Source: Coptis chinensis
Taxonomy: Eukaryota; Streptophyta; Magnoliopsida; Ranunculales; Ranunculaceae
Length of the DNA stretch: 64,000 nucleotides
Direction: 5' to 3'
NCBI GenBank assembly: GCA_015680905.1
Contig: CM027378.1
Location: forward strand, 76,909,501 to 76,973,500
The translations under genes and the position numbers were made by a program. The notes beneath the pieces were generated by a model, which worked only from the letters and a program-made list of their open reading frames with translations, had not been told where the DNA came from and ran no database searches. Below, piece by piece: positions 29,057-63,480 of the stretch (position 1 is its first letter; every line of letters begins with the position of its first letter).

Positions 29057-29368
29057 GATCTAATAACCATTGATAAACATCTCTACAAAAATTAGTCTCA
29101 TTTAGAAATCTCTAACCTAGTTAAAAATCATTTTCAATTTTTATTTTTTTTAAACGGTTCAAATTTTTCAATTTTGCAATCATCTTTTGACATAGTTAAA
29201 CATTATCAAATAAGTTGAAATTTTGTAGAGGTGATCCTCATAATTAGTTAAACACATCTACAAAAAATTATGTTATAATTCATGTTGTACATAGAGTTAT
29301 GGGGCATGGTATAAACTAGGATATAAAAAGTGTGGTAAACGAAACTTACTATATATATATATATATAT
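29057..29368. other. Spacer between LTR element and MULE
   Basis: AT-rich and without genes, ending in a TA microsatellite (29350-29368). The segment 29268-29340 resembles 23939-24030, just inside the other LTR of the neighbouring element; both share AATTATGTTATAATTCAT and AAAAGTGTGGTAAA. Confidence 0.5.
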
Positions 29369-30260
29369 CGGTTTGTCTAGAGTGCCACTCTTATAGTGAC
29401 ACTCTTATCTCACTCTTTTCTTGAACCGTCGGATCTCGCCCTCAAGATCTGAAGATCTAATTTACATAAAACCGATATTTCAAAATTTCGGTGTATTTCA
29501 AAATAAAAAAAAAATAAAAAATAAAACGAAAATAACAAAAAAGAAGGTGTAATTGGGTTCTCTCTCTTTCTCTCTCTCGGCTTCTTCTTCTCTGAGGGTA
29601 TCATTTGGCAATTCGGTTTCTTCATTCGGCTTCTTCTTCTCTGACAAGTATCATTTGGCAATTCAACTACTAGTTGCATCAATTCAAATTTAAACTTCTT
29701 TTGACTGTCTTTGTGGATAGAATTGATAGATATGTAATTACTATAGTGCACTTTTGGTTATGGTGCTTGCCTATTGGAACATTTTAATTGACACTTGGAT
29801 TGTCATTATACCATAAAAACTTGAATTTTGATTTAATTTAGGTTGCTATGATTATAGTTATGATTGATACCCTCGTTTAAAGACGGCGACAATTTCGGTG
29901 AACTCTGTCAGAGTTCTGTGAACTCTATCAAAGTTTTGAACTCTTTCAGAGTTCGGTGAACTCTGTCGTATTCTTCATGCCGTATTCTATCAGAGTTTTG
30001 AACTCGTCGGTTCGGTGAAGAAGATATTCGTGAACTCGTTTAGTTTGAACTATATTGGTGAACTCATTAATTTTGAACTAAATTTCGTGAACTAGCATAT
30101 TATTCGGTGAACTCGTTTAATTTCGAGTTTTGAACTTTGTCGAGTTTTGATGTTTTAAGTTATTTACATTGTTTATGTACATTGGGATTTTTGATTGCTT
30201 AAGTTATTTATATTTTCAATTTTTTCGATTTATAGAAATGGAGACAGGGACATCAATCAA
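29369..30260 (+). repeat. Left inverted arm of the MULE
   Basis: Terminal repeat (29369-29590) with CT-rich tract, then the GAACTCTGTCAGAGTTC-type array (29889-30150), then the transposase leader and ATG. The stretch 30120-30255 is matched in inverted orientation at 38700-38815, sharing TGTACATTGGGATTTTTGAT and GATTTATAGAAATGGAGACA. Confidence 0.75.
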
Positions 30261-32488
30261 TATCGAAGAAGACGAAGTTGGGTCTTCGCCTACTAAAGCC
30301 CCTCGCTCAAGGCACGCAAAACATTAGTCGCTTCCTTATATAGGAATGACTTTTACAAGTGTTGACGGGCAAAGACTTATTACAAAGAGTATGGTCAACA
30401 AGAGGGATTTGAGACTGCGGTTCGGACTACTTCCAAGCAACAAAATCGGTGGATTTGGTTAGTGGTTGTTTACCGTTTTACTCACGGAAGGGGTTAACAA
30501 GAGAGATGAAGTCCCATCAAGAAATACATCAACTATCCGTGTGGTTGCCAAGCTAGAATTGTATAAAGAAAATAATGCATGAGGAGATATATGAGGTCGG
30601 CGTTCATAATGACCATAGTCACGGTCCGGTGACCCCATCGAAGAGAATTTGCATGAAAACTAACAAACATATGCATGAAGCAAAGGCGTTTGACCGAGAT
30701 ATTTAGTGATAACAGTTTATCCGTTGGGAAAGTGGCATCCGTTTTCCATGGAGAGGAAGTCAGGTTTACATAAAAGATTGTTGGAACCATTATTATGGTT
30801 TGACCGTAAAGATGCCTAAAGAAGGTGATGCAACCGCCGCGGTCGCAATATTTTATTTTTGGAAGAGTGCCGAGGATCCCCGGTTCTACTACGCTATTGG
30901 ATTTAGATGAAAATGGGATCCGGTGAACTTTTTCTCGGTTCATGGGAGGTCTCGATCAAATGACTATTTCGGGGATGTTGTGTCTTTTGATACCACATAT
31001 CGCATAATGCATATTCCATGCTTTTTGCCCCCCTTTAATCGAGTCAACCATCATTATCGATGATTCAGTTTGGTTGGATTGTTGCTTGATGAGACGAAGA
31101 TACATTCATATGGCTATTTAAGGCCCGGCTTGCGCCCATGGGTTCTAACCGCAATCATCAACCGTATAGAGCGATAATCGCAGCCATTGCCAAAGTGTTT
31201 CCTAGTACTCGTCATCGTTTCGCCTTTGGCATATTATGTAGAAATTCCAAGAGAAGATGTCATTTACCAAATTTGAGACATTGGTAACCGAAGTTGAAGA
31301 ACACTATTTCTTTTTCATATAGGATTGTTGATTTTGAGAGAAGATGGTGTACAATCATTGAGAAGTATGAGTTATCCGAAAATCCTTTGGTTGACAGAGA
31401 TATATTCAATGCGGAGAAATGGGTTCCTTGTTATCTCGTTTTTTTGTCGGTATGCACACGATCGGGTCAAGTGAATCGATGAATGCTCATTATGACCAGG
31501 TTTGTCAATTCGACGACTCACGCTTTATGCAGTTTGTACATGGTAATGAGAAGTCTTTGGCTTTGCTTGCTAGGAAAGAAAGAGATTCTCGATTACCGCG
31601 ACCGAAAGCATAGTTCACGGATTGTGCCTAACGATGCTTTCCTTCTTATGCATGCCAATGGTCTATAATGATCTCAATATTCAATAAATTTAAAGAGCAA
31701 CTAGAAAAGGCAAAGATGGAGTACAAAATTGATGGGGAACAGATTGACAAGTATGGAACCGGAAGCTACATGGTGAAATGGAGAGACCCGCTGAAGAATT
31801 CTGTTTGGAGAGTGAGTTTCGATAGAGGAACCTTAGAGGGAGATTGCGAATGCAAGTACTTTCAGTTTATGGGTTTGCTTTGTGGTCATATCTTAAAGGT
31901 TTTTATGCGCTACGAGATTGAAGAGATTCCAAACCATTTTAGATTGACGCGGTGGATGCAAAAGGCTAACACTTATAGAGCGGAGTTTGATACTGGATTT
32001 GTGGTCAGGAATGTCTCAAATGAACCTTTGAGAGTGGCTCATTCTATCAAGGTTGCTTCTCAAGTGGCTTACGATGCGTCGCATACTTTTGAGGGTTATT
32101 CATATTTCATTGAAAAGATTGGTGAAATGGCTATTGAAATTTCAAAGTTTAATGAGACTTCCTACAAAGGAGACGCTTGAAGTTGCAGAGCCTCCAAGAG
32201 CCTTTTACCTTCGCTTAATACATCAATTTGAATGTTTAATTTGATATAAATTTAGTGTTTAATTCGGTGTTTAATTTGATATAAATATTTATTTTAATTC
32301 GGTCTTTATTTCAGCTATTGATTTTGAATCCCAACATTTCTCAAACAAAAGGGAGGGGGAAGAAGAAAGCGGATAGATGGAAATCCCCCAAAGGGATAGC
32401 CCTAAACAATTCAGGAAGAAAGTGTCACAGATGTGGACAGATTGCTAACCATGACTCGAGAAATTGTCCGGAGAAAAATAATATGTAA
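30238..32488 (+). pseudogene. FAR1/FHY3-type MULE transposase, broken
   Basis: A probable start ATG is at 30238 (METGTSINIEEDEVGSS). Parts in order: FAR1-type zinc-binding DNA-binding domain (about 30345-30560: FYKC, EGFETAVRTTSKQQNRW, then NYPCGCQARI); the DDE core region (about 30960-31235: YFGDVVSFDTTYR, VNHHYR, LLLDETKIH, IAAIAKVFPSTRHRFAFGIL); a stretch to 31610 (GSSESMNAHYD); and an open frame 31668-32180 with the SWIM zinc finger CxCxxFxxxGLLCxHILxVF and the VWRVSFDRGTLEGDCEC lead-in. After a probable intron there is a zinc knuckle CHRCGQIANHDSRNC and a stop at 32486-32488. Several stops and frameshifts interrupt the first two-thirds, so no full transposase can be read. FAR1-like transposases catalyse cut-and-paste transposition of MULEs. 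The relatives FHY3/FAR1 are domesticated transcription factors, but the flanking arms make transposon origin clear. Confidence 0.82.
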
Positions 32489-33519
32489 TCTGTCAATTGT
32501 AAGTATAGCTTTATTCAAAACTCTTTTGATTCTAAATGTTCACTAGTTCTAATGATATTTTATCTGCGCGTCATGGACTTCATTGATGTCTGGACTTGTT
32601 AAGAGTGGTTTAGATATGGCAGCCTTGTTAGAGTTTTATCAAATGTTGTTAAGTTGAACTGTGTCGAGGGTTGTGTTCTATTGCATCATTATGTCCATTG
32701 GATAGTATCTAATATTGCCAGCTAGGCTCTAGATAGGAAACATCATAATGATAGACCGGTGCTTTTTTTTTATAACTTCTTTCTCCCTTTTTATTTTCAA
32801 AGTTCAATATTGCTAGTTTAGGTTACATTTGGGGAGTTTAATTAGATTGAGTTCTAATCTCATTGATGTTGTAGAAAAGAGAAGTATGGCTCAAAGAGAA
32901 ATGGAGAATCTGGAGGCAAAGCTTTGCTTTAGGTAAAAATACTGCCTACTCATCTGTTCGTTTCCAGCCCCTCGACTTTGCATCAGTCGATCTTCAGTCT
33001 TTTCATCATTCTCTGCGGTTATGTTTATGACTGCTACAGTTCCACAAGATGCCACAGTATCACTGCCACCTTGACTATGCACCATTCGAAGAAAGTGCGT
33101 CAAAATTGAGTTATTAGCTACAACGGGAGAAATTGTCGTGGAAAGAGCGAGAGAAGAAGCAGAAGTGTTGAAAGAAGGTGGAGAAGTTGAAGAGAGCTGA
33201 AACTTGGAGTGAAAGGCTTGAACAAGCCAAAGCTAGGTGCAGGAAGGCTATACTTGTTGCTAATTCATTCTGATGTGCTTAAATGTTGTAATACATAACA
33301 ATAATATTTGGGATTGCATAAAACATTTTGATGTGCTTATTATAAATGTTACTGTTGTTATACAAGCGCGTCCACTTGCAATTTTGTTTCGTAAGTTGAT
33401 ATGATGTATTGATGCAGATACTATACCACCAGTATAATGCCAACGTTTGTCAACAACAAATTTACCTCAACTCATATGATCATCAATCAACATCAACAAA
33501 ATTTAGCTCAACTGATAAA
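32489..33519. other. Downstream part of MULE transposase unit
   Basis: Contains a short coiled-coil-like coding scrap on the plus strand (about 32887-32938, MAQREMENLEAKL) and a lysine/glutamate-rich stretch around 33120-33270. These resemble the tail of FAR1-like proteins. Otherwise AT-rich, probably the 3' end of the transposase transcript. Confidence 0.4.
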
Positions 33520-34157
33520 TTGCCAAAACACGAAACTTATGTTTTTTTGCCTCTTGACTGGTGTGGCCAAGGGGCAAAAAACGATTAACGCCATTTTTAT
33601 GCAAGTTCAAATCCAAACGATATGGCCAAGACGGTTTGGACTTAGTCCCAAACGGTGTGGCCATGCCGTTTGGGGACTAAGTCCAAACGGTGCGCCATAT
33701 CGTTTGGTACTAAGTCTTGCAAAAAAATGGCGCGTGTCTGCTTGGAACTTTGTCCCAAACGGCATGGCACCGTTTGGTACTAAGTCCAAACGGTGTGGCC
33801 ACACCGCTTGGGGACAAAGTCCAAACAGACACACCATTTTTTTTATCCAAGTTCAAATCCAAATGATATGGCCATATACGTTTGGTTTGGACTTTAAAGT
33901 CAAAAAAAATGGACGGTGTGTTTGGACTTTGTCCCCAAACGGCATGGCCACACCGTTTGGGACGGTGTTGCAAAAATGGCCATGCCGTTTGGGGACAAAG
34001 TCCAAACAGAACCACCATTTTTTTTAGACACGGTGTGGCCATGCCGTTTGGGACAAAGTCCAAACAGACACGCCATTTTTTTTGCAAGACTTAGTACCAA
34101 ACGATATGGCCACACCGTTCAAGAGGCAAAAAAACATATCTTTTGTGTTTTGGCAAA
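33520..34157. mobile_element. Foldback element packed with short palindromes
   Basis: The ends are inverted: TTGCCAAAACACGAAACTTA from 33520 and, read inward from 34156, TTGCCAAAACACAAAAGATA. Both continue ATGTTTTTTTGCCTCTTGA. Between them, a GC-richer core repeats inverted versions of AAACGGTGTGGCCA and GGCATGGCCACACCGTTT, spaced by GTCTGTTTGGACTTTGTCCC-like linkers. This gives many nested hairpins. Open frames on both strands here are artefacts of the repeats (NGMATPFGT, AWPHRLGL and similar). No target duplication could be fixed. Confidence 0.7.
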
Positions 34158-35247
34158 AACATTGCGTACTGCATTAGATTTTTGTGTTTTGGCAAATAAC
34201 ATTGGGATTTTTGTTGATAACATTGGGATTTTTGTGTTCTGCATTAGATTATTAATAGAGATACTTCGCTGTGATAAATTAAAATGCGCAAGTTGTCGGA
34301 GAGCACAAGAAGAGCCATTGAATGGATATAAACTAAGATCTAATCAAAGCACATACGCACAGCCCTGGTAAGTAGTATAACTGCATTTAATCAGACGGCA
34401 GACGTCCTATTAAAATCAATGCCTGCTAATCGAAGAAACATAACCAAAGGCCATTCTTTGGCATGCCGTTTTACTAGATCTTGCACCAAAAAACCCTAGG
34501 ATCTTAGGTGAACATGAAAAGAATGACAAGTCCAAAGCAAGATCACTATCATTTCATATTTCAACAATGTGACACCATGTGAAATACATTGTCCAATTAT
34601 CAACATAAAGCTAAGTTGCTACATATCAACAACTTGCACTTACAAAAGAGTCCTAACATAACATTTTTTGACTAAAGAGAGATTTCCAATCTAACTTTCT
34701 GACTTTAGTTGTATATCTAACTCTTTGTTCTTTATCTCCTTCCCGCAAAACAAAAAATTGAATAAACAGATCAGTCAAGCAAAGTTAAATCAAACCTGCT
34801 TTATTAAGGTCCGACAGAAAAACTAACCTCTCCACTTGCTTCCTCATGTTCACCATCTTCCGCCACCACCATTTGCCTAATTACCCCCCAATAAAAACAC
34901 ATGAATCAGTATAAATACTACCACATATGTCAAATCTAACACCAAATCTAGAAACCTCATTGATTGGAAAACTCTTGAACTTAAGTCATGATCAACTCTC
35001 AAAAGAACAAAGAAAAACAAATGCCAATAAACACTCCCCGCATCATCTCAACTAACACAAACTGAAAAGTAAAGCAAAACCCACATCATCTCAAATGCCA
35101 ATAAACACTCCCCGCATCATCTCAACTAACACAAACAAACCATTTCCATTTCCAACACTCGTCCCAACACAAGATAAAAGGAGGTAAACTAACCAAACTA
35201 ACCACTAAACCCTAAACTAACCAAACTCAACATACCTAAATCCTATG
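34158..35247. other. Spacer between the two MULE genes
   Basis: No gene recognised. It contains a direct duplication of CAAATGCCAATAAACACTCC (35017-35036 and 35093-35112), each copy continuing CCGCATCATCTCAACTAACA, and repeats of AACATTGGGATTTTTGT near 34198-34240. Confidence 0.5.
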
Positions 35248-37657
35248 CTCCTTCACGATATCGTCCGCCAATGAACTTGCACCGGATCAAATTGTATGCC
35301 TCCATGAACTCGTTCTATGCATCGTCTGGAATCGCAGTCCCACCCAATTGTAGGCCTTGATTGAGCAAGCGAGAAATTTCATCGACGACGGGGTGCTGTC
35401 AAAATTAAAACGAAAAACTACATTAGTATATACATTTACATTTATAAAATACCAAAACAAAACAAAACAAAAATTAACGTTGTAAGATATTAACTCACTA
35501 GATTATGATATGGAAGACTCTGTAGGGAGTAGTGACTAAGATGATCAGGGTTTATCATTCGAATATGACTATTGTTTTCGTACCAACTCATGTATCTACT
35601 AACACACTCCCATGGATAAGACGGAATGGGTCCTCGTTATTCAAGTTGAATAAAGTGATTCTGCCATTTACTCCAGTAGGAAGATGCAATATTAAATTTC
35701 ACATCATACCCGCGTCCGGAAGTAGTTCGCGTCGAGGTCTTTGGTCTTGGGGGATCTGAGGGTACAAACTGCATATGACCCAACCGACGCGACAACCCCT
35801 CGCAAACATTGTATCGCTTTCGACATTATCAAGAAAGCATATAAATCCCTCGAAAAATGCTATTTCATCCACCGCCGTAGCCGTCGGACTTCAACTTCAA
35901 CATAGGGATACCATTCAACCCGTCAAATAACATATGATCGAGGAAATTAATCATTAACCACATACTAATAATATCAATTAATAAGTAAAACTATTTACAT
36001 ACAAAAATGCTTACATCGGTACAAGTCATATTATCAATGGTGGCTCGGTATGCTTCAATGCATTTGTTGTGCTAGCATAAAAAGACCGAAATGTAATCGA
36101 GTACCTATGAGCATCGGACATGCTCAACCGATAGTCCTCATTTGGGTATGGCCCGAACACCGAGAAGTACTCATAAATCCATGCCTACATTAATATAGAC
36201 ACCCGCCAATATTGTAATAGATAGATAAAATTGACATTGAAAAGAAAAACAAAAAACTAATACACGTAGGAGAGTGAAATAGCCCGAAACACCCTTCACC
36301 TTGGCACTTGTGGCGGTCCCAAGACCCACAGATAAGTAAGCCGGTAAAGCACCCCACGCGTAGTCTCTGATCTCGGCAAATTTCGAAAGCAGTCTCAGAT
36401 AACAAACGGGAATTGCAGTTCCAGACATGTCGGTGAAGGCGGTACATCCAAAGAAAAATAACAGATAAGCTCTCATAGCAAACTACACCTCTTTTTGGGT
36501 TGACGCCTTCTTCACAACAACCCCATTTTCATCACGTAAATCTTCATTTGTTACCTTCCCAGCAAACTGCTTCATCAAGAAATCCATCCTAACTTTGGAA
36601 GTGAACTTATTGGATTTCATCTCCGCATCTATCTTATCCATGGGTATGCCAAGATGTTTGTGGAGGAGTCTTTTTTTGTTCATTCCAGGTCAAATCGTGT
36701 CCCCGATCCACGCTTTGCCTCTCGATCGAAACTCCTAAGAGTTGGGAAACATCGTCCAACATGATTGTCATCTCGCCCCACGGCATATGAAACGTGTTGG
36801 TCTCGGATGCCACCTCTCCACAAACGCGAGACCAACACAAGATCCCGATGCTCAGTATACACCTAAGACCCAGAGCACATAAGCCGGTCCTTTGAAGCTC
36901 CACGTGAAAAGTAGAACGGTCGAACACTCTCCGATGATGATATTCCATTGTACCAACTTGTTTAGGTGCCCATGGCACTTCAACACCCCTCGCCCGCCTA
37001 AAACAACAAAAACTTAGTATTAATGTATGCACAAGTTTCAGTAATACAAAATTTAAATACTAATAGACACTATATGATAATATTACCCCCCTCCCAAACA
37101 TCGCGAGAGCCACGCACACTACATAGTCATACAACGGATGTGACACACAAGGGCCACCTCCATAAACACCTCTCTTGAACTCCAAGTCATTGTTAGACTT
37201 TCTCACAATATTCACCGGAGGTGCAGTACATGGACTTCCTCGTCATTCTCCTCCTCCTCCTCCTCCGTCCTCTTCCTCCTCGTCGGGTCTCCTCTTACGC
37301 ATCATCAACACCCTCTTCTTCACTATCATCATGACTTAGAACTACACTCTTCCCACGATCCATATGTACGTCATCGTCATCGTCATCGTCATCTACATCT
37401 ACATCTACATCACTCAGAATTGTCCTCTTTCTTCTCTTTTGATTTCCTAACTCTACACCACTTACAACATTACTGGGATCATCCGCTTTCCGATCCCCTC
37501 TACGAACTGATGCCGAAGTGGTTGTTCTCCTTCCTCTCTTTTTCTCAGGCTCCTCATCACGACCCGAACTACTACTCCCCCCACCTAACAACTTCTTAGC
37601 ACCCGTGAAAACACTTTTTGCTGCATTTTTCACATTCACATTCTTTGTTCGAGGCAT
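35248..37657 (-). pseudogene. Plant mobile domain (PMD/MAIN-like) gene, broken
   Basis: Minus-strand translation shows a plant mobile domain protein. A basic-acidic N-terminus starts at 37657 (MPRTKNVNVKNAAKSVFTGA) and contains poly-Asp. Next come VYGGGPCVSHPLYDYVV (about 37120-37175), RGVEVPWAPKQ (about 36960-36995), the diagnostic FHMPWGEMTIMLDDVSQLLG (about 36735-36795), FTSKVRMDFLMKQFAG (about 36560-36610), AWGALPAYLSVGLGTATSAK (about 36300-36360) and EYFSVFGPYPNEDYRLSM (about 36115-36170). C-terminal blocks follow: LSRRLGHMQFVPSDPPRPKT (about 35740-35800), YMSWYENN and a tail to 35248. Frameshifts or introns separate the blocks and some in-frame stops are present, so it is probably non-functional here. 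PMD proteins include Arabidopsis MAIN and MAIL1; related copies are known inside MULEs and Ty3/gypsy elements. Function inside the transposon is unknown. Confidence 0.75.
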
Positions 37658-38807
37658 TGCTACAAAATAAATAGGAGTTAAAAATAAGATATTCAACTAA
37701 TTCAAATTGTTGCAATACCAACGTGAAAAAACAAAGAACGAAATAAGGTGGTGTGCATGCTATCTAGGCAAACTATACTCTATTAAATCCCCCCTCCACA
37801 CACTAACAAAAAAAACCCAATCTAATTCAAGCATGCGAAATCGACTAGGAAAACTTTGCGAGAACGACTCATGTAAAACTTTAAAGCCGCCATGGAGATA
37901 ATGAACATCGAAAAAAGAAGCACATTTGTAAAACGAAAATAGTTGACGCGGCATAAGAGAAAGACAATATAAGAGCTGAAGCTCGATGGGGAAAATGAAA
38001 GGGCCATAATCTCACGAGTGGAGGAACGAAGAAAGATCAACATCAAAGGGGAACAACTGTCGATACTCGATCTTAAGTCTCTAACTCAAAAACTAATGAA
38101 TATGAACTGAGTGTAGAAGCTATTAAAGTCACAGTTGTATACATAGCACATCAAGATCAAGAAGTCAGAGAAAACTGTAGAGTCGAATGCATCTACTTTG
38201 CATATATATATATAGCAGGAGGCATTATAGAAAAATTGCTATCAGTTATTAAGTTGGATTCGAGTATATGGCATAGATGCAAGTTAAATGCAGCCACGTG
38301 GTCTTGAGTTTGAGGCAAGTACAGTGTCGGCGATACACATTAATGAATTTTGGCGTCTTTCTTGCTAGTTTGGGACGTCCAACATAAACTAAAATGTCAA
38401 AAACTTTTAATCTTTTAGTTAAGCGTCACACTCCTACTATGATTTGCATGTACAAAATGGGTGTCTAGAATTCAAAAGAATTAAATCAAACATAACATTA
38501 TATAAAAAAAAAAAAGATAGAAAGATAGAACAGTTACCTAAAACAGAGCTATATATTTATTTTGAATCAAGCAAGCAGTACTCCAGTCGATATGGCCTCA
38601 AATAAAAATCTAGTGATATCAACAAGAGAGACAATAAGTTCATAACTTCATTGCTTGATTTAATGATTTATTTATTTTGAACTTGGATAAACATAACATT
38701 GATGTCTCTGTCTCCATTTCTATAAATCGAAAAAATTAAAAATATAAATAACTTAAACAGTCAAAAATCCCAATGTACATAAACAATGTAAATAACTTAA
38801 ACATCAA

Positions 38808-39215
38808 AACTCTGACAGAGTTCAAAACTCTGATAGAGTTCAAAACTCTGACAGAGTTCACCGAATATGCTACTTCACCGAACTCTGAAAGAGTTCAAAA
38901 CTCTGATAGAGTTCACTGAATATGTGTTTGTCACCGAACTCTGATAGAGTTCACAGAATATGTGTTTGTCACCGAACTCTGATAGAGTTCACCAAATATG
39001 TGTTTGTCACCGAACTCTGATAGAGTTCACCGAACTCTGACAGAATTCACCGAATATGCTACTTCACCGAACTCTGATAGAGTTCACCGAATATGTATTT
39101 GTCACCGAACTCTGATAGAGTTCACCGAACTCTGACAGAGTTGACCGAATATGCTAGTTCACCGAACTCTGATAGAATTCAAAACTCTGACAGAGTTCAC
39201 CGAATATGCTACTTC
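38808..39215. repeat. Array of 17-bp near-palindromes
   Basis: About 14 copies of GAACTCTGAYAGAGTTC, alternating between back-to-back pairs and pairs separated by CACCGAATATGYTACTTCAC or CACCGAATATGTGTTTGTCA spacers. Shorter arrays of the same motif lie at 29889-30150 and 40230-40350, so the motif occurs in both MULE arms. Confidence 0.85.
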
Positions 39216-39329
39216 ACCGAGTTTTCAATGTTACAAAAGCAATTTTGTCAATAGTGTTAAACTCTTAATGGATCATCGAGTAAAACCTCTAGCGATCATC
39301 AAGGTAGTAGTAAGTCACTACCTTCTATA

Positions 39330-40010
39330 TTTCTAGCCTAGCAGGTGTCGTTGAAAATTGGCATGGGATTGATGATTTTATTCACAACCAATAGAAATGG
39401 CATTTAGAGATTGGCTATAAACACCCCACGGTATAGAAGAACATATTGGAGTTTTAAACAAGCAAATTGAGGGAGATGACATTACTTGTTCTGCTATAAA
39501 CACCTCTAAGTTGTCGAATGGCTTCAACTTCAACTAGAAGTTGAGAATTTGCATAGGAAATCAGAAGCAACTTCCACGGTTAAATGCACGGCTTATTCAT
39601 ACCGCTTCTATTGCCTTGAGTTCTTGGAAAATGATGAGATCATTCCTCCGTAACTGTAAAGCTAGGCATTACATGCCCATAATAATTCCTTAGTACCCCC
39701 TCTATAGCCCACACTATGTGAGTTTACAAAACCATCGGTGTTTTATGCGACACCACATAAAATGAGCAAATGCAATAGCATCTTTTGAAGGAGGAAACCA
39801 TGTGTTGCTCACCGATCTATTATATAAACCACGGATCATCACTAAAATCATTCTTCGTCATTTCGGGCCGATAAAGAAAAAACATGTGCACTTTCAACAT
39901 TTGAGATCCTAACCGATGTGATCAAGTCTAGGAGTAGGACCCAAAACGGTGCTATTGCCATACCAAACTTGTACATATAAAGAGTAAAAGGAATATGAAT
40001 AAACCATAAG
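39330..40010 (-). pseudogene. RNase H-like (LINE-type) fragment inside MULE arm
   Basis: On the minus strand, pieces such as FQELKAIEAV, ISRAFNRGSCF and LKLKPFDNLEVFIAEQ resemble the middle of the LINE-type RNase H-like domain (E-L-K-A-I-E-A helix). Stops and frameshifts are present. It interrupts the near-palindrome arrays, so it arrived after they formed or was captured within the arm. Confidence 0.45.
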
Positions 40011-40988
40011 CTTAGGCAGGTAGGACAGAGAGAAAGAGAGAGAGAGAGATTGAGTGAGTTAAGGTTTGGTTAAAATGATAACTTATAATGAAAGCGAATG
40101 AGTACATATTTCTAAGCGATTGATATCATAGATTAGTAGCGAGACTAGCAAAGATTGATATCATAGATTATCACCGAACTCGGCGAATCACGGCATGAAG
40201 AATAATAACGAGTTGAAAGCTCGACAAAGTTCACGAACTCGACATAGTTCAAAACTCTGACAGAATACGGCATGAAGAATACGACAGAGTTCAAAACTCT
40301 GACAGAGTTCACCAAACTCTGATAGAGTTCAAAGCTCTGACAGAGTTCAAAACTTTGACAGAATACGGCATGAAGAATACGGCAATGAAAATACCATTAA
40401 AGCAAAGTTTACCTCAAACACAGAAACTTGTTTACTTCCAAGTTTCGCGTTTTAAACAACAATATAAACAATTTCATACCCAATTCATACTTGTTTACTT
40501 GTCTAAGTTCATAAACAGTTGAACCAAGCGTTTTAAACTTGTTTACTTGTCTAAGTTCATACCCAATTTCGTGTTTTAAACAACAATATAAACAACATCC
40601 AAGAATAAAGTTTACTACTAGGTTAGTTCATACCCAATTTCGTTTTAAACAACAATATAAACAACATCCAAGAATAAAGTTTACTAGGTTTATTTCAAAC
40701 GAATCCAAGCTAATTAAATAAAAAATCAAACGAATTAAAAGAGGAAAAATACCTTAATCCAGAAGCTTGGTTCAAACTGGAGAAGAAGAAGCTGAGAGAG
40801 AGAGAGAACCCAATTTCGTGATTTTTGTGATTTTCATTTTTTTTATTTTTATTTTGAAATACCTCTAAATTTTAAAATATCGGTTTTATCAGTGGTTTAG
40901 ATCTTCAGATCTTGAGGGCGAGATCGGACGGCTGAGGAGAAGAGTGAGATAAGAGTGTCACTATAAGAGTGGCACTCTGAAGACAAAC

Positions 40989-40990
<2 letters not shown>

Positions 40991-41039
<49 letters not shown>

Positions 41040-41451
41040 TATCCCCTTTAAATTTCCTATAAATAAAACTCCCCACCGGGACAAATTAGGAAACGAAAAA
41101 ATCAAATGAAAACGTAACTGTTATGTTTCCATTGACTGGATTTTTTCGTTTCCTAATTTGTCCTGGTTGCTCTTATCTAATTACATCAACCAAGACAAAA
41201 TATAATACATAAATTGTTGTCTAACAAGGACATATGTATCATTCAATACGTTAATGATTATTTATTATAGTAGGCCCAAAAAATAAAACTCAAATAGCAA
41301 CTTTCGTAGACGTTGGATAATTGTTGTTTATCTTTATCAAACTACCTTTAATTCACATTCATAATTACCAGATGTGCCTTCTCTTCTCTTTTTCATTTGC
41401 AGTTCATAGGGACACACGTGCACTATTATTGGGATTCCAAACTTTCCTTAC
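40991..41451. repeat. TA microsatellite and 24-bp perfect inverted repeat
   Basis: A TA run at about 40992-41042 borders the MULE. Next, 41080-41103 (GACAAATTAGGAAACGAAAA...) is the perfect reverse complement of 41139-41162, leaving a 35-bp loop. No gene recognised in the remainder. Confidence 0.7.
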
Positions 41452-51753: not shown

Positions 51754-52046
51754 ACCTTTAGCTAACCATCATATCACACTACTTGAGCTCACTTGAAAGT
51801 GTCATGTCACAAGTCACAACTTGTGAAATACAATGTTAGCAGTCATATGGGGCCCTACATGGCCCCACATGCACCAAGCCTTTTTATTTGATAGATATTT
51901 GTCAATATAATTAAAATGTTCTACTGATTTTACTCAACTTATTATAATTTTACTCTAACTATATATAATATATATTATAATGTTCTACTTATAATTTTAC
52001 TTATAATTATATATTATAATGTTCCACTAATTTTACTCTAGTATAA
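51754..52046. other. Spacer before the Pack-MULE
   Basis: AT-rich, with repeated GTTCTACT / TATAATTTTACT motifs between 51920 and 52046. No gene. Confidence 0.4.
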
Positions 52047-53559
52047 TTATAATATGGGTTATTTAGGCTTTGGTCCTACTTATTATGGGGTATTTAGGTT
52101 TTAGTCATAAAATTATCGATTATTAGGTTTTAGTCCTATTTCTATCTATTGACCGTGAGTCATCTCAGTTGACCGTGGTCACACCGTTTTCTAATAATAT
52201 ATTTTTCAATTTTTTTTGCAAATGGCCAAACGACCTTTGAGCATGCTTGATACGTGTCCTTCAAACTAGAAGACGGTGACTGAAAATGTGCTGACAATAA
52301 GTGGGCAAGTCCCTGTTGTTAAATCAACATCTATTTCTATGCCGAGAACCTTAAATGTTCTTAACGCCTCATACATTTTCTCTAAACTGGTGAATAAGAA
52401 AAACAAAATTAGAAAATAATGCAAATTAAAATAACTACTTAACATCTCAAAATTAATAATTAAAAACCTTTGAAGGAAAGATCTAGTGTTGTTGAAAACT
52501 TGTAATGCATCAGATCGATAGATTTGATTTGTAATAGGTTGATGATCCGATTACAAGAAATGATGATCCGATTATTAGATGATGATAAAATAATCACAAC
52601 AACTATCATTAATGAAATCAATGTATTAGCTTGGTTCAAACTTAATATCCGGAACAATTTCGAAAGGTTTGAATAATTGTACTAAGTTGACTTACTTGGA
52701 TCTTTCTATGAATTCATTTAGTGGAGTGGTGCTAGATTTTCCTTCTCTTACTGGACTGACTTTCTTGAATATGAATAATACTGGATTTTTTGGCGTTTTT
52801 CCATGGAAATCACTTGAAAATATCACGGGTCTCCAGTTTTTAATCGTTAGGGATAATTTGTTCAAGAATAGTTCGTTTCCTGTGGAGATTCTAAAGCTTG
52901 AAAGGCTTTACTGGCTTTATCTCACAAACTGTAGTCTAGAAGGGAGAATTCCACCAGAGATTGGAAATTTGATGGAGTTTACCAATCTAGAGCTCTCTGA
53001 TAATACTTTATCTGGACCGATACCACCTGAAATCAACAAACTCAACAAACTGTTGCAGCTTGAACTTTACGACAACTATCTCACCGGAGACTTCCCTGTG
53101 GGTTTTGGAAATCTTTCTAGCCTTATAAAATTTGATGCTTCGAATAACAATCTTAAAGGAGATCTCTCGGAGTTGAAATCCTTTACACAATTGGTCTCTC
53201 TGTAGTTGTTTGAGAACAAGTTTTCTGGACAAATGCCAGTGGAATTCGGTGATTTCAAGTTCCTACTTAATCTCTCGCTGTATACCAACATGCTCACAGG
53301 TAATTTGCCTCCATTGTTTAACTTGGTGTTCCAACAGTCCAATATAAAGTCACATGCCAAGCACGCTCAAGGGTAGTTTGGCCATTTGCAAAAAAATCAA
53401 AAAATATATTATTAGAAAAGGGTTTGACTACGATCAACTGAGACGACCCAGTGTCAATAGATGGAAGTAGGACTAAAATCTAATAATTGATAATTTTAGG
53501 ACTAAAACCTAAATACCCCATAAGAAGTAGGATCAAAGCCTAAATAACCCTTATAATAT
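52047..53559. mobile_element. Pack-MULE carrying an LRR receptor kinase gene piece
   Basis: Element 52056-53550 (1495 bp) with a perfect 9-bp target duplication TTATAATAT (52047-52055, 53551-53559), the Mutator signature. Inverted arms of about 200 bp begin GGGTTATTTAGGCTTTG (left) and, read inward, GGGTTATTTAGGCTTTGATC (right). Both arms run through TTTAGGTTTTAGTC, ATTGACC/ACTG and CAAATGGCCAAAC. The interior has no transposase. It holds a fragment of a host LRR receptor-like kinase gene plus about 360 bp of other sequence (52259-52620) of unknown origin. Confidence 0.9.
52620..53345 (+). pseudogene. Captured LRR fragment of HAIKU2/RLK7-like receptor kinase
   Basis: The plus strand reads, from about 52632, GSNLISGTISKGLNNCTKLT. 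Leucine-rich repeats follow: YLDLSMNSFSGVV, FPSLTGLTFLNMN, FPWKSLENITGLQFL, FPVEILKLERLYWLYLTNC, IPPEIGNLMEFTNLELSDN, INKLNKLLQLELYDNYLTG, FPVGFGNLSSLIKFDASNN, GDLSELKSFTQLVSL. A single in-frame stop (TAG at 53203-53205, where family members have Gln) is followed by LFENKFSGQMPVEFGDFK and LSLYTNMLTGNLPPLF. This order and wording match the N-terminal LRR ectodomain of IKU2/RLK7-type (LRR XI) kinases. Signal peptide, transmembrane and kinase parts are absent. The long frame with one stop suggests fairly recent capture. Confidence 0.8.
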
Positions 53560-54059
53560 ATATTTGTCAATATTTATCTCTATTCTATATTTACATCTCT
53601 TTTAGAATGTAGATTTGTTAATTGTATAGGAAAATAAGAATTAGAAACAAAACATTCATGTCTTTATGTTAGTTTACTCGATCATTTGATTTGCAAAAAG
53701 AAAAAATAATGCTCTTCACATAGATATACAAAAGTTTTTAAGTCAAGGTAATAATCCCATATCTCTTTTCCCTTCTATTTTTTGTTTCTTATTTATGTTT
53801 ATTCTTGTTACTCATCCTTATAAGATTTTTTTTTTATGAAGTATTTTTTAAATGAATTTTTAAATAATTTGGTAATTCGTGTTTTATACGTTAATAGTGA
53901 AAAAAACGTGAATTATTGAAAGGTTTAGAACGAAGCATTAAACGTTTAGGCCTTAAAATTTTCGATTCGTGAATTATATGCAAATTATTTGGAGTATTAC
54001 TAACAAGGCTCACTGTTAATGTAGGAAGAAAGGCAAGCTCAAATGATAACTTGGTGGTG
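53560..54059. other. AT-rich spacer
   Basis: Nothing recognised. The minus-strand open frame at 53891-54136 has no known features. Confidence 0.4.
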
Positions 54060-56089: not shown

Positions 56090-56350
56090 TGGTGTGGTTG
56101 GGCTTGGGCTTGGGCTTGGGCCGAAGCCAATGGGTTTTGTTTTGGTTGGGCTTTAGATCTGTTTGGTTTGGGCCGGACTAAGTTAGTTAGTTGTTTGGGC
56201 CACTTTCAGTTTAGTCTTTGGGCCAATTTTCTTTTATTTCTTTGGGCCGAACCAATTAAAGTTTTGGGCCAGTTTAAGTTTCATTTTTTTAGTTGGCTTG
56301 GGCCGAAACCTATTAGCTTTCTTTAGGCCAGTTTCAAGTTTGTTTTGAGG
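56090..56350 (+). repeat. GGGCC-rich degenerate subrepeats in outer LTR
   Basis: Units like TTTGGGCCRGTTTAAGTT recur roughly every 30-40 bp. The same array type recurs in the nested copy at 58065-58480. The open frame over it is a translation of the repeat. Confidence 0.6.
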
Positions 56351-57117
56351 CTGGTCCATATAAATTAAATAGATCCAATTGGGTCTTTAAATGTTTAGAC
56401 TTTTGGGCTTTGGTTTTGGGGCTTTATCTTGTTTAATTGGATTAGGACAACGGGTTGAACTGTTTTAGACATGGGTTTGGGTTAGGACCTGTTTGGAGAA
56501 ACACTGGTTTAGGACTGGTGACTGTTGGGTTTGACCCTTTGACTGTCTATTTAATTGTGCTACGTTTTTTTATATTAAATTGTATGGACAAATCAAATGC
56601 TAAAATGGTGCGAAAGCCTACATAAATTGATTCGTCACTATCTAAGAAAGATTTGACATTGATATTGTGCAATTTTTGACACGTGACGAGATAGAAATCT
56701 TAGGAGACATAATATTCCTAAAACGCTATAAAAATGTTATGCGGTACGTTTGGAGAAATTGTGATATTATGTGGTATGTGAAAATTGTTGTTATGTTAAA
56801 TGATATAATATGTTAGGATATCTATTAAATGCAATATCTTTGAGAAATTTATATAAACGCTCCATTATTATATATGTGAGATGCTACTATGAGGTAGTAT
56901 AGTATTTGTAGATATTTTCCACGGATTGTGGCTTAGTACAATAATATATTTGGCACGTGAAAGAATGAAAGTTGTTATGAGATATATTGAGATATTTCCA
57001 AATATGGTGGCTTAGTACAATAATTTATTTGGCACGTGATAGAGTGAGATGGTTATGAGATACTAATGCATGACACCTGAATAAATTACGTAACGAAAAT
57101 CCTAGAACCTAGCTACC

Positions 57118-60100
57118 ACAACTGTAACGCCCGTATTTAAAATATGTAATTATTAATTAATTGATTAATTTAATTATTTATTTAAAATTGGTTGGATTGG
57201 ATTTGAGATATGTGGGCCTGGTTTCTGGGCTCGAGTCTGTGTTGGGCTTGGGTTTCAAACCCAAGTATATAATCACATTGTTCTAGAGAATAGGGTTTTT
57301 AGAGAATAAAAAAATAATAAAAATGGAGGCAGAGCTAGAGCGTTGGAGCGCGACGATTTGGACTAGGAGGAATTCGTCGGGCTTTTAATACAGGTGAGGA
57401 GCTATTTTGCTATTTCACCAAATTTCTAGTTTTCCGTGTATCGGTGTATACTGTTAAAAGTCTCTGCTCCTGTTTTCGGTTCATTATTATGTTATTATCA
57501 TTCGTCCTGTCATTGTTAAAATTGGGTAAACTGTCGAAACTCTGTTAAGGCTAGGAAATCCACATTTGACTGTCCAAGATTTATAAGCTAATGGCGTCCT
57601 GCAACAGAATGAACGAAATCCTATTGGCTTGTTTGAACTTTCTTTACTTGTTGGGGTATGGTTGGTTGTTGAGGTATGATGGAAATGTTATTGGATGGGG
57701 CTGTCGAAGCGTTGCATCCGGCACTAATGGCGTCGACTGTCGTTTTGATTGTTGTTAGATTTGTCGGCTTGAATGGGTTGTTGGTGAGGGGGTAGCTAGT
57801 GTAGGGTGTGAAGGTTGTTAAGGGGTGCTATTAAAGCTTGGGAAAAGCTTGGAAACAAGCTGTTAATGGCGGCGGTAATATTTCCAGATCTAGTTTTGGA
57901 GAAGATGGTGGATTTAAGAGTTGGGGTTTTAGCTTTTGTTAAAGTGGTGGGGGTTTTTACCCTCTCCATTTTCGGGTATGTTTGGAGGGGTGGCGATCGG
58001 AATAGATGGTGGCCGATTTTGGTGGCTGGAGGCAGAAGAAATTTGGAGAAGATAACTGTTGGTCGGTTTGGGCTTGGGCCTAGGTCGGTTTCAGTTCTTG
58101 GGCCTTAGCTTGTTTTGTTTGGGCCAGACCTATTTGGCTTAGTCTATGAGCCAGTTCATTTGTTGTTAGGCCCGATTCTATTTTGGTTTTGTTGGGCCAG
58201 TTTTGATTAAGTTGTGGGCCAGTTCAGTTTAAGTTTTTGGGCCTAAACATTTGTTAGTTATTGGGCCGGATTAATCCTTCGTTTCGGACCAGTTTAGTTT
58301 AAGTTGTGGACTAGTTTTAGTTTAAGTGTTGGGCCGGTTTTAGTTAAATTCTCCGGGCCGAACCCAATGGTGTTTTGAGCCAGTTTCTAATTTTGGTTTT
58401 TGGGCTGGTCATATAACTTAAAATATATCTAATTGGGTCTTTAAATGTTTAAACTTTTGGGGCCGGGTTTTAAGGTTTGGGCTTGGCCAGTTGGGTCCGA
58501 ACCATTTCCTTAGTCGTGAGCCCTTGAGCCAATGCACCTTTGCCCTTAGCCATGAACCATGGCTATGACCCTGAACTTGTCGAACATGGAAATGATAGTT
58601 TGACTTTGACAATGATGTGTTGACTTTGACTTTGACTTTGACCATTGACCATGGAATATTGACTTTTTCCAGTTTTTCATATATTTAAGAATATGGACAA
58701 ATATAGTAATAAAATATTGTTGAAAATTATATAACGTTGTTTGTCATTATCTAATTAAGATTTGACGTGAGTAGTGTGTAAATCATATATATATTGGGCT
58801 TTGATTGTGGACTGTTGACTGTTTAATTGTGTTACGTTTTTATATATTAAATTGTATGGACAAATCAAATGCTAAAATGCTGTGGAAGATTGTATAACTT
58901 TAGTTGTCATTATCTAATTAAGATTTGACGTTGATATTGTGACCTTATATAATATGTTGGGATATATATATTAAAGGCAATAGTTTTGGAGAAATAAATG
59001 TATAAACACTCCATTATTATAAATGTGAGATGCTACTATGATGTAGTATAGTATTGGTGAATATTTGCCCACGGAATTGTGGCGTAGTGCAATAATATAT
59101 GGGCACGTGAAAGAATGAAAGTGGTTATGAGATATAATTGAGATATTTCTAAATATTGTGGCTTAGTGCAATAAGGTATTTGACCTGCACATGATATAGT
59201 GGAATTATTATGAGTCATAAATGTATGACACCTGAATAAATTACGTAACGAAAATCCTAAAACCTGACTACCACAACTCATGTGATTTGCCCTGTGTGGG
59301 CGTATGTGATATGATTGACCCTTGTGTAGGGTGTATATATAAGATGTTGATTGACCCATGTGTTGGGCAATCGTAGCCGAATAGTGGCTTGATTATTCCG
59401 TTCGAAATATTAGAACGAGACTCGCGATATTTTATGCCGAATAGTGGCAGTACTTGCATAATGGCTTTCGTGTGAGGGTTACCTGGTGTGCGGCATCCCG
59501 CTCAGGGTAGTTACGCACGGAGTGGTTCATTATGTGAGGGGAGGCATGTGGATGTACATGTTCGGCGTTGGAAAGCGATTGTGGTAGCTAGGGAAACTAG
59601 GTAAGACATAGATACGACGTGATTTTAGGGACACGCAAAGAAAGCCTGAAATAATCTAATTATGGTAATATGTTGGTTATTGGTTTAGTTAGAACCTAAA
59701 AACTCGATGGAGGAACTATATGCCTTATTTATTATCGTATAGTTTGTTGTGTGGTTAGTGGGAAGTTAAAGGCTTCGATTGGAGGAACTACCTGCCTAAA
59801 TTATTGTACTTAAGGATGTTGTATTAGTCGTTGAAAGTTAAGGCGCCTCGGTGGAGGAACTAACTGCCTTATGGATTGTGTATATATTTGTATAAGAATA
59901 TGTTGTATTTTAGAGCTACTCACACCAGCATTTTTATAATGCTGACCTGATTTGCATGTTTGCTTATCGGGTGTGTTCATTAAATGAACATAGTTGATAA
60001 GTCTTGACAGGTTTAGTGTTGAAGAAGATTGGTTGCTGCTTGTGGTTTGCGTTAGCGTCGCATTTCAAGATAGGCTTTGTTTTCCTTTGAGGTGATATAG

Positions 60101-60324
60101 ATTTTCAGTTGAAATAAGATTATTTGCATTTTCATTTGTTAAATTTTTGTAATGAAGAGGACTTTTGTTTAAGTTAAAATTTTTATTGGTTTTTAATTAT
60201 CCGCATATTTAAAACTGTTTATGGGTTTTTGGAAGTGGAGAGTGCGTCACACCTCGGAGATCGAAGAGTCGGGAACAAATAATGTTTTTTCGAATTCTGT
60301 CGAAATTCGGGGTGTGACAACAAC
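57118..60324 (+). mobile_element. Inner solo-LTR-like insertion (fossil), TSD ACAAC
   Basis: 57123-60319 (3197 bp) begins TGTAACGCCCG, ends GGGTGTGACA, and is flanked by ACAAC (57118-57122, 60320-60324). It belongs to the same family as the copy it interrupts: 59255-60319 aligns with 57090-57117 plus 60325-61689, for example CTACCACAAC followed by a GTGATTTGSCC block. No gag or pol is seen. Confidence 0.8.
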
Positions 60325-61694
60325 TTAGGTGATTTGGCCCTTGTGATGGGTGTATGTGATATGATTAGCCCTTCTAGCGTTTCAGTGAATCTGAATGACC
60401 CTTCTAGCGTAAGTAATTTGATTGGCCCTTCTGGTGTTTCAGTAAATCTGAATGGCCCTTCTGGCTGTAGTCGAATAGTGGCTTGATTATTCCGTTCGCA
60501 AAAATTAGAACGAGACGCGCGACATTTTATGTCGAATAGTGGTAGTACTCACATAATGGCTTTCGTGTGAGGGTTACCTGGTATGCGATATCCCGCTTAG
60601 GGTAGCTACGCACGGAGTGATTCATTATGTGAGGGGAGGCATGTGGATGTACATGTTCGGCGTTGGGTAGCAATTGTGGTAGCCAGGAAAACTAGGTAAG
60701 ACATAGAGACGACATGATTCTAGAGACACTTGAAGAAACTATAAACAATCATTGTAATGATATATCAAAGTTTACGTTAAATCTATAATAAATAATTGAT
60801 GGTGGTTGTGAAATTTGGTTCAATGAGATGATTGGAATTATGTATATGATATGTTTGTTTTATTGTAATTTATGTTGTATTCACAAAGGTTTTGTAGAAG
60901 GGTAGGTTGAATTGATTATTTATGCAGGTGTGACCCACTCTGTGATTTGGCTTACACCAGTGTAAGTATAGAGTGAATTTTAGTTTGGTTATTCTATTAT
61001 TAGATACAGTTGATCTAGTACGGGTTGAAGTTAAGGCGCCTCAGTGAAGGAACTAAATGTCTTATTATTATTGAATTGGAAGCTAAGGCGCCTCAGTGGA
61101 GGAATTACCTGCCTTAATTATTGTACTTAAGGATGTTGTATTAGTCGTTGGAAGTTAAGGCGCCTCGGTGGATGGAATTAACTGCCTTATGGATTGTGTA
61201 TATATTTGTATAAGTATATTTTGTATTTTAGGGCTACTCATACCAACATTGTTTATAATGCTAACTCAATTTGCATGTTTACTTATCGGGTGTGTTCATA
61301 AAATGAACCAAGTTGATAAGTCTTGACAGGATTAGTGTTGAAGACGGTTGGTTGCTGCTTGTGGTTTGCGCTAGCGTCTCATTTCAGGATATGTTTTGTT
61401 TTCCCTTGAGGTACAATAAATTTTCAATTGAGACAATGTGGTTTTGTATTTTCAGTTGTAATTATAATTAAAGAGTTATTGAAATGAGATTTGTAATTTA
61501 ATCATATTTGTGAGTTTTTGGTAATGAAGAGGACTTTTGTTTATTTAAAATTTTTTATTGGTTTTTAATTATCCGCGTATTTAAATTGATTATGGGTTTT
61601 TGGAAGTTGAGAGTGCATTACACCTCAAAAATCGAAGAGTTGGGAACAAATATTGTTTTCTCGAATTCTGTCGAATTCGGGGTGTGACAGAGCA

Positions 61695-63480
61695 AGAGAG
61701 AGATCAAACAATGGCACTGTATGATGAAGAGCAAGCAATGTTTAAAGACATGGAGGAGAGTCTGATAACTGAGATTATCACAGAAACAGAGAGTAATCAA
61801 GTTTTCAATGATCATATTGAGAAAGTTGCTGGCCTATCACTTCCAGTTACTCATAATAAGAAGCAGACTCAAGAAGCAAGGTCTGAAGCTGGAAAGAGAG
61901 ATAAACAAGTGGCAAAGTGTAACCAGCCACTGCAGAGTTCTTCAAAAGGAAGAGGTTCAGGACGAGGGACTCACAAGAAGCATTAACACTCACTTTATTC
62001 TATGTCAAAACTAGGAGTATGGAATGTTAGGGGAATAAATGAAGTAGTGAAAGCAAGGGAAGTTAATAAAGTTAGAAGTGAAAACAAGCTATACATGATG
62101 GGGATTCTCGACACCAAGGTCAAGATTGGTAGCTATGATCTTATTAGGAATACTTGTTGTCCTTTTTGGTCTCATATGAATAATTATAACTCTGATCCTT
62201 CGGGGAGGATATGGTTTTGTTGGGATCCAGGTATGATACAAGCAGTTTGCATCAAAGAGACATCCCAGTTGATTCACTGTGAGGTTAAGGTACTCCCTAC
62301 CAATCATAGTTTTTACTTAACTATTATCTATGCAAGCAATTCTATTGTGTAGAGGCAGAATCTGTGGCATGATCTGGTTACACTAAGTGCAGGCATTACT
62401 TCACCTTGGTGTGTTAGTGGAGATTTCAACAACATTTTGCAGTCTTCAGAGAGAATTGGCAGTAATCTAGTGCTTCCGAGAAAATTAAGAGACTTCTCAA
62501 ACTGTGTGAATTCAGTTGGGCTAGTAGACTTACAGTTCAAGGGCAGCTTCTTTACTTGGTCCAATAATTTAGACGGAGTAAGGAGAAAATGCTCTAAAAT
62601 TGATAGGTGTATAGTGAATGTACATTGGAGTGCTCTGTTTCCTGCATCAGAAACTGAGTTTATACCTCAAGGTGTTTTAGATCATACTCCAATGATTCTC
62701 TCTTTGTACACTATGGTGAGACAAGCATCTCCTTTTAGGTTCTGTAATGCTTGGGCATTACATCCGAAGTTCAAAGAAACAGTGGCAACAACATGGGCAA
62801 CCCCTATCATAGGTAATCCCATTTATATTCTTGCACAGAAACAAAAGATGTTAAAAGGTGTTATGAAGAATTGGTCGAGACTACATTTCTCAGACATAAG
62901 CAAAAGAACAGAAGAAGCAAGAATGAGAATGTTCTCAATACAACAACTGCTGAGTTCTGATGAAGGTAATACAAATCTCATATCACAAGAAAGACATGCA
63001 AGAAAGGAATATACTAATCTCATGAACATGGAGTATGAAGATGTTAGACAGAGAGCAAACAGTCAGTGGCTACAGGAAGCAGATAGGTGTATGACTTTCT
63101 TTCACAACATGGTGAATGAAAGAAAGCTAAGGAACAAAATTCGGTCTATTGTTGACCAAAATAGGGGAAAAATCACTGAATCATTTGAGGTGATTGAAGA
63201 TATTGTTAAACACTATAAGAATTTGTTGGGAGAAAGTGACACTATCAATCAAGACATTCTGGAGGGTCAACAATTGCAAGCCACAGTTCAAGCACAAGAA
63301 GGCATAAATCTAGAACTGGATGTGACTCCGGAAGAGATTACGGAGGTCTTATTTGCTATAGATAGCTCCAAAACACCAGGACCAGATGGATATTATGTTT
63401 GTTTCTATAGGACTTGTTGGTCAGTGGTAGGAGAGGATTTAAATACAGAAATATGCAACAACGTACTTAGGCCATATTAA
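61695..63480 (+). mobile_element. L1-type LINE, ORF1 end, endonuclease and start of RT
   Basis: ORF1 ends at 61984-61986 (GRGSGRGTHKKH). ORF2 begins at 62002: MSKLGVWNVRGIN opens the apurinic-type endonuclease. GILDTKVK lies where the family usually has an ETK motif. WCVSGDFNNIL and LDHTPMIL are the later catalytic blocks, and the nuclease ends near 62700. A linker with a coiled-coil-like middle follows. The reverse transcriptase opens with ITEVLFAIDSSKTPGPDG and stops at 63480, well before the YxDD motif. One in-frame stop (TAG at 62350-62352) splits ORF2. Loss of the 3' part is unusual for a LINE and implies a later insertion or deletion near 63470. Confidence 0.85.

Follow-up and report, generated by a model that had tools for sequence, protein, structure and literature searches.

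Does a plant mobile domain (PMD) gene inside a Mutator-like element (MULE) serve that element, or does it only travel with it? The question is raised by positions 29369-40990 of a 64,000-nucleotide stretch of the Coptis chinensis genome (hereafter the window; C2:76909501-76973500 of a 935.6-Mb assembly in 116 contigs), where inverted arms enclose the relics of two genes, a FAR1-MULE-SWIM transposase on the plus strand and a PMD gene on the minus strand, with a palindromic foldback array between them. An earlier note on this DNA had described the same arrangement, and alignments and Pfam hits confirm it. Structure and sharing together indicate that the locus is probably a dead Mutator element whose domains are Jittery-like, with two convergent genes and a PMD module common to a second MULE family.

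Organization of the element

The outer terminal inverted repeats, a trait of the MULE superfamily, occupy 29369-29592 (plus strand; delimited by alignment and genome matches) and 40780-40990 (minus strand), and the gapped alignment of 29369-29592 with 40990-40780 shows 82% identity over 228 columns. A pair of inner arms (29894-30257 vs 39091-38698) is 75% identical over 405 columns, also with gaps, and is blurred by tandem repeats. The left inner arm (29894-30257, plus strand) contains the first part of the transposase frame as well as tandem repeats, the right inner arm (38698-39220, minus strand) carries expanded subterminal tandem repeats, and the beginning of the transposase frame is included in the inner arms on both sides. 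A subterminal repeat block lies farther right at 40211-40394 (minus strand). The ungapped arm matches in the window show 94% identity over 82 nt and 89% over 133 nt. The arms are interrupted and do not form a single long block. The search for other copies with the same termini, which the earlier note had proposed, yielded 226 genome matches to the terminal 49-mer at up to three mismatches, versus none for a reversed control. For the left arm, the best 40 of 753 first-look genome candidates scored as matches, two of the 40 being the window's own ends.

The transposase relic (30236-32243, plus strand) consists of a FAR1 region at about 30236-30800, a core at about 30694-31904 and a SWIM motif in the open reading frame (ORF) 31632-32177. 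SWIM exceeds the Pfam threshold in the window itself, and FAR1 and MULE exceed it in sister copies, whose transposase frames align to window positions 30236-32243 with many stops and frame changes. The MULE transposase domain (PF10551) scores E 2.6e-33 at locus L020 and 8.3e-11 at L028, and the window relic aligns to these sister copies. The domain order is that of the Jittery group, with FAR1 at the N-terminus (found in L012 and L019) and SWIM (L028 and the window) or CCHC at the C-terminus, the latter recognized by eye only. It corresponds to a Cys/His cluster resembling a zinc knuckle in the last transposase exon (32285-32485, plus strand), for which there was no Pfam hit. No MuDR-type DNA-binding family appeared among the Pfam hits; FAR1 is present instead.

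On the minus strand, the PMD gene module (35203-37711) comprises several exons with a start codon near 37657, and is preceded by a 5′ leader at 37712-38690. Two window ORFs on this strand match PF10536, one over the cut-off (E 4.7e-10; 39.6 bits vs a cut-off of 34.9) and the other 0.1 bit under it (1.3e-08). The domain still scores E 1.6e-38 in the sister copy L019, and a search of the PDB with a PMD frame gave no match to E 1. Neither gene is intact in the window copy. The foldback array of palindromic units occupies 33520-34156, between the convergent genes. As the transposase is present, the element is not a Pack-MULE, a class defined by gene fragments without transposase. The possibility that the locus is a composite of two nested elements was ruled out, as its parts recur together in other copies; the label "composite" used in the earlier note is therefore unsuitable for what is a regular two-gene element.

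In MuDR, the genes are transcribed inward from the arms. A full copy of the present element has two convergent genes with the array between their 3′ ends. By analogy with MuDR, transcription of each gene would start at the adjacent terminal arm and proceed inward, and the palindromic spacer may keep the two transcripts apart.

Amplification of transposase and PMD as one unit

Co-occurrence was followed with 30-mer markers. Counts on C1-C3 are from exact matches to the transposase and PMD markers, which miss mutated copies, and the PMD counts are complete only up to C3 121.0 Mb. The first 100 places were listed per pattern search, at up to three mismatches; the total matches are 193 for the transposase, 374 for the PMD, 146 for the second transposase described below, 104 for the leader and 226 for the terminus. 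Protein and DNA searches of the genome score the best 40-150 candidates only, and the chance figures for marker pairing assume uniform placement.

A convergent PMD marker lies downstream of 39 of the 64 exact transposase markers. One of the 64 has a downstream PMD marker on the same strand and one an upstream PMD marker; the chance expectation for any PMD marker within 20 kb of the 64 is 0.78. When 20 transposase loci (the best 20 of 39 other places matched) were read over 10 kb each, 15 contained a convergent PMD. A sixteenth, L015, has one just beyond the stretch read, placed by coordinates only. Among the PMD DNA matches listed, window included, 23 of 40 have a convergent transposase among the matches listed. 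The 150 listed transposase protein matches show a convergent PMD among the PMDs listed in 13 of 37 cases at identities of at least 87% and in 7 of 113 below 87%, all seven at 79-85%. The PMD is thus antisense to the transposase, as in the MuDR group with antisense PMD. The shared termini and the tail-to-tail layout in most copies examined support amplification of transposase and PMD as one unit. The co-occurrence in most copies that the earlier note had asked about is borne out by 16 of 20 loci (one by coordinates only) and 39 of 64 markers.

The same PMD gene beside a second transposase

PMD markers outnumber transposase markers (374 vs 193), and for this reason two PMD loci without the first transposase among the matches listed, L073 and L074, were read. 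L074 encodes a MULE transposase (PF10551, E 2e-21), and that of L073 is the same, with 94.6% DNA identity over 3.2 kb. This second transposase is 30% identical to that of the window family over 109 residues, in one piece, and its N-terminus falls just under the FAR1 cut-off in L073. An OTU identity for its C-terminal tail was dropped to a convenience label, as Pfam gave weak hints only; a PDB search with the tail returned no match to E 1. The PMD gene of these loci is convergent with the second transposase and, introns included, is 88% identical to that of the window in L073 (over 2.6 kb) and 91% in L074 (over 1.9 kb). No other part of the window is matched in L073 and L074 except the palindromic array.

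The borders of the shared stretch follow the gene. In L073, the 5′ border lies about 55 bp upstream of the PMD start codon, just inside the preceding intron, and the 3′ border about 40 bp past the stop; L080 shows the same 5′ border and L074 the same 3′ border. The leader and the 3′ flank are unrelated between the families in the copies read (L073, L080 and L074), and the window leader at 37712-38690 is accordingly absent from these second-type copies. The ends of the second family were not found, L073 and L080 sharing only patches upstream of the PMD.

Of the PMD markers matched exactly on C1-C3 (100 in all), the first transposase accompanies 38 and the second 29, and no marker has both. The second partner is present at 25 of the 100 by marker alone and at 29 with protein matches, versus 0.26 by chance; the list of second transposases also takes places with a single mismatch and protein matches. 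Seven second-type PMDs (L075-L079 assigned to this type by the adjoining marker) form one clade with a support of 100 and 14 fixed differences in 1586 columns. This single clade suggests one exchange or capture, followed by amplification, in the second family. Its position among 16 first-type PMDs is weakly supported and yields no direction of transfer. Leader markers of the window family (100 listed of 104) face the first transposase in 53 cases, the second in 11 and neither in 36. Because 11 face the second transposase, the junction may not always be identical, and there may have been more than one exchange; all 11 pairings are by marker coordinates alone, and one of them spans 18.6 kb.

In both transposase clades, no PMD turned up at the distant members checked. 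Reading 6 kb downstream revealed no PMD in four first-type relatives with transposases 68-82% identical; L069, one of the four, has a related terminal repeat within the same 6 kb, and another, L071, has 133 bp of the spacer at 95% identity and part of the array. On C1-C3, an exact PMD marker accompanies 13 of 26 second-type transposases with 84-100% identity, 3 of 8 in the range 76-83% and none of the 21 in the range 67-75%. This distribution looks like acquisition by particular sublineages, bearing in mind that diverged PMDs would escape the marker.

The 26-base unit of the array occurs at 314 genome sites at up to one mismatch, and 50 exact sites listed resolve into 33 loci, of which 13 have an exact PMD marker within 12 kb and 20 have none. 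The unit is on the 3′ side of the PMD in all 13. At C1:26870524, C3:19016696, C3:10344917, C2:70946623 and other places, PMD markers with the array on their 3′ side have neither transposase among the matches listed. These places perhaps represent a third partner or decayed copies; the PMD marker at C3:19016696 has the leader of the window family.

Selection on the two genes

Variants shared between copies were compared with singletons. In the transposase core, shared variants are depleted of amino-acid changes (0.45 vs 0.93, p = 0.0018, 21 copies). The values are 0.50 vs 0.80 (p = 0.056) for an overlapping longer part and 0.50 vs 0.87 (p = 0.12) for the FAR1 part, and shifted frames gave no comparable drop. 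This shows purifying selection on the transposase variants common to copies. The selection check that the earlier note had proposed for the PMD turned out differently, as shared variants were not depleted of amino-acid changes in a test that covered 229 codons, with limited power, in three frames and in 16 and then 23 copies. With 16 copies, two parts of the domain gave 0.73 vs 0.73 and 0.74 vs 0.72, and the N-terminal part gave 0.58 vs 0.91 (p = 0.20).

Origin and role of the PMD module

The PMD is best read as a portable accessory gene, possibly with an anti-silencing function. The module of about 2.5 kb runs from a splice acceptor just before the start codon to about 40 bp past the stop. 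Since it opens at a splice acceptor, it could splice to the leader of whichever element holds it. Identity and borders are directly visible, and the route they suggest is passage between families as DNA, introns included. The PMD may well be an exchangeable MULE cassette, a proposal that we hold tentatively, such that elements with unrelated transposases would acquire, swap or lose it in the convergent slot behind the palindromic spacer through DNA recombination, its own splice acceptor permitting expression from the leader of the recipient. The weakest step in this scheme concerns function. The PMD protein may mimic or titrate the host MAIN/MAIL1-PP7L silencing proteins and thereby render the element less silenced; that it is an accessory factor of this kind we consider conceivable but somewhat doubtful.

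Several observations weigh against this reading. The silencing role draws on published speculation (in the relevant passages of PMC5418596), and no purifying selection was seen across all 23 PMD copies (0.65 shared vs 0.68 singletons), although the test is noisy, as a nominal decrease appeared in one PMD frame that had been shifted (0.68 vs 1.17, p = 0.032). The 10 kb read lacked a PMD at five of the 20 transposase loci, at one of which the gene lies just outside, and no exact PMD marker occurs within 20 kb of 23 of the 64 transposase markers. On the PMD side, 33 of the 100 markers have neither partner among the matches listed. PF10536 has 3774 first-look candidates in the genome, and of the best 117, which were scored, 13 are paired with the second partner among the matches listed and 5 with the first; most high-scoring PMDs of this genome may thus belong to other settings. 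The homology of L074 to the window ends at 37075, inside the gene, which hides its 5′ border, and the tail of the second transposase is weakly OTU-like (Peptidase_C65, E 0.055, below cut-off).

The strongest competitor takes the PMD to be a passive passenger, captured by transduplication and amplified merely for lying between termini. We regard this as a real possibility, though not a probable one. Its case is the contrast between shared PMD variants, not depleted of amino-acid changes, and shared transposase variants, which are, together with L028, which has the transposase and both termini but no PMD. It does not readily explain why the same gene occupies the same convergent slot in two families of this genome, or why antisense PMDs are tabulated for several plant MULE groups (PMC6446971 Table 1); moreover, the L019 domain retains its high score, and the power of a 229-codon test is limited. 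The interpretation given in the earlier note stands in part: transposase and PMD were amplified together, but service of the PMD to the element is not borne out, with constraint seen on the transposase, none seen on the PMD and the same PMD beside another transposase. Within the power of its 229 codons, the selection test speaks against the service proposed by the note. The note had also held that copies with identical termini but no PMD would speak against its view. Such copies are a minority (L028 with both termini and a transposase; L010, L014 and L016 with no PMD in the 10 kb read), and most copies have the PMD.

Other histories would leave the role of the PMD aside and explain its sharing differently. 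An independent capture of the same host gene by the second family would account for border sequences that differ between the families in the copies read, and the first-family leader marker that faces the second transposase at 11 of 100 listed places, where junctions may vary, also fits it. It is nevertheless unlikely, as the one PMD among the 117 scored that resembles a host gene (L059, C6:56314396, a 447-residue frame) is distant, with 49% identity over 43 residues, although a closer one may exist, and as a single clade near the first family holds all seven second-type PMDs. Inheritance of the PMD by both families from a common MULE ancestor is disfavoured and very improbable: the shared orientation and the similar palindromic array agree with it, but PMDs 88-91% identical with their introns are set against transposases 30% identical over 109 residues, nothing else of the window apart from the array is matched in L073 and L074, and distant members of both transposase clades lack the PMD where looked for. 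Equally remote is the idea of a PMD that is mobile in its own right and has inserted into both families. Sharp module borders and the 33 unpartnered markers are what it would predict; against it, inspection of the aligned copies by eye revealed neither inverted ends nor duplications at the borders, these borders match those of the gene and, of the 33, 8 have the leader of the window family and 5 have its terminus near, the two sets overlapping.

Anti-silencing has been put forward, as a speculation, for PMD genes inside transposons (PMC5418596). One PMD, introns included, that occurs with two transposases makes the fate of the PMD separable from that of any single transposase. If PMD-bearing lineages outgrew their PMD-less sisters in both families, this would amount to a repeated natural experiment on the benefit of the PMD. 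The findings also suggest that, inside a single genome, families of plant DNA transposons can exchange their accessory genes.

Target sites

The family is found mostly in TA microsatellites. The window copy itself is flanked by TA repeats at 29350-29368, as read from the sequence, and at 40993-41042. Fifteen pairs of ends, chosen by eye among the 100 listed of the 226 terminal matches and joined by nearness alone (4.7-17 kb; two wider pairs of about 28 and 33 kb were excluded), were counted by eye: TA runs lie on both sides in 11, on one side in three and on neither in one. Runs of TA thus adjoin at least one end in 14 of the 15 pairs, whereas across 20 loci 0.18% of bases fall inside such a run or no more than 2 bp from it. 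Target duplications of 8-11 bp characterize MULEs. The 9-bp duplication test was rejected at the window because both flanks are TA runs, and a duplication is likewise unreadable in the 14 pairs with a TA run on at least one side. In the sole pair without one, the flanking nine bases are alike at eight of nine positions. At L043/L044 and L051, termini of related elements come one after the other across TA runs or close to them, which recalls the stacked SaTar arrays, and same-strand termini about 0.9-1.0 kb apart were noted at C9:50945062 with 50946025 and C5:91424394 with 91425303.

Other features of the window

An ORF with leucine-rich repeats (52630-53202; Pfam LRR_1, E 2.3e-14) lies between inverted arms at 52043-52216 and 53390-53563 (174 nt at 88%), which are possibly inverted duplicate gene pieces. 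A direct-repeat block, whose repeats are about 1.1-1.4 kb and 2.1 kb apart, extends over 56339-61682, and a strong positive GC skew over 54-62 kb spans it. A 375-residue ORF at 62353-63477 resembles, by eye, part of the endonuclease of a long interspersed nuclear element and had no Pfam hit.

Comparison with known systems

That PMD genes travel with some MULEs, as the earlier note stated, agrees with the group table of a MULE survey (PMC6446971), which lists PMD in several related groups and "in antisense for most" of the MUDR group. A convergent PMD layout in MULEs is therefore known in kind, for other MULE groups than the present one. In the literature searched, which comprised few subscription papers and did not include Repbase, neither a FAR1-type TA-targeting element with a convergent PMD nor one PMD common to two transposase families was found.

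By domains, the closest counterpart is the Jittery group 36, including MUMET1 (PMC6446971), which is alike in the N-terminal FAR1, the MULE core, SWIM and possibly the C-terminal zinc knuckle. The survey table describes this sub-group, from dicots and monocots, as having FAR1, SWIM or CCHC and one ORF, and lists no PMD for it. The single ORF is a tabulated trait of Jittery members rather than a strict definition, and the window family departs from it in its regular second gene. MuTAnT elements of Medicago are TA-targeted and their autonomous copy, AutoMuTAnT, is Jittery-like and also lies in TA runs, like the window family (PMC4486113); its description gives a single Jittery-like ORF, whereas the window family has a regular convergent PMD. 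Groups 42 and 45-50 of the survey (MUDR, MUDRAVI2 and VANDAL) resemble the present element in the opposite respect. They are tabulated with the PMD as an extra motif or gene, which most members of the MUDR group carry in antisense, as here, but the window transposase, unlike theirs, has FAR1 and fits the Jittery row by its domains.

The SaTar/Micron elements, TA-targeted MULEs, share insertion into TA microsatellites and the signs of stacked elements (L043/L044, L051); they are mostly short and non-autonomous, unlike the window family, and the term "mobile domain" is absent from the main text of their description (PMC5907723). In grasses and Amborella, PMD-C is fused to MULE transposases, for which Ikeda et al. 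(PMC5418596) speculated on anti-silencing in the passages concerned; a MULE carries the PMD in both cases, fused there and as a separate gene on the opposite strand here. The VANC protein of VANDAL/Hiun offers a functional parallel, namely an extra MULE gene that counters silencing. VANC is another protein, and a comparable role for the PMD of the window family would be reached by analogy.

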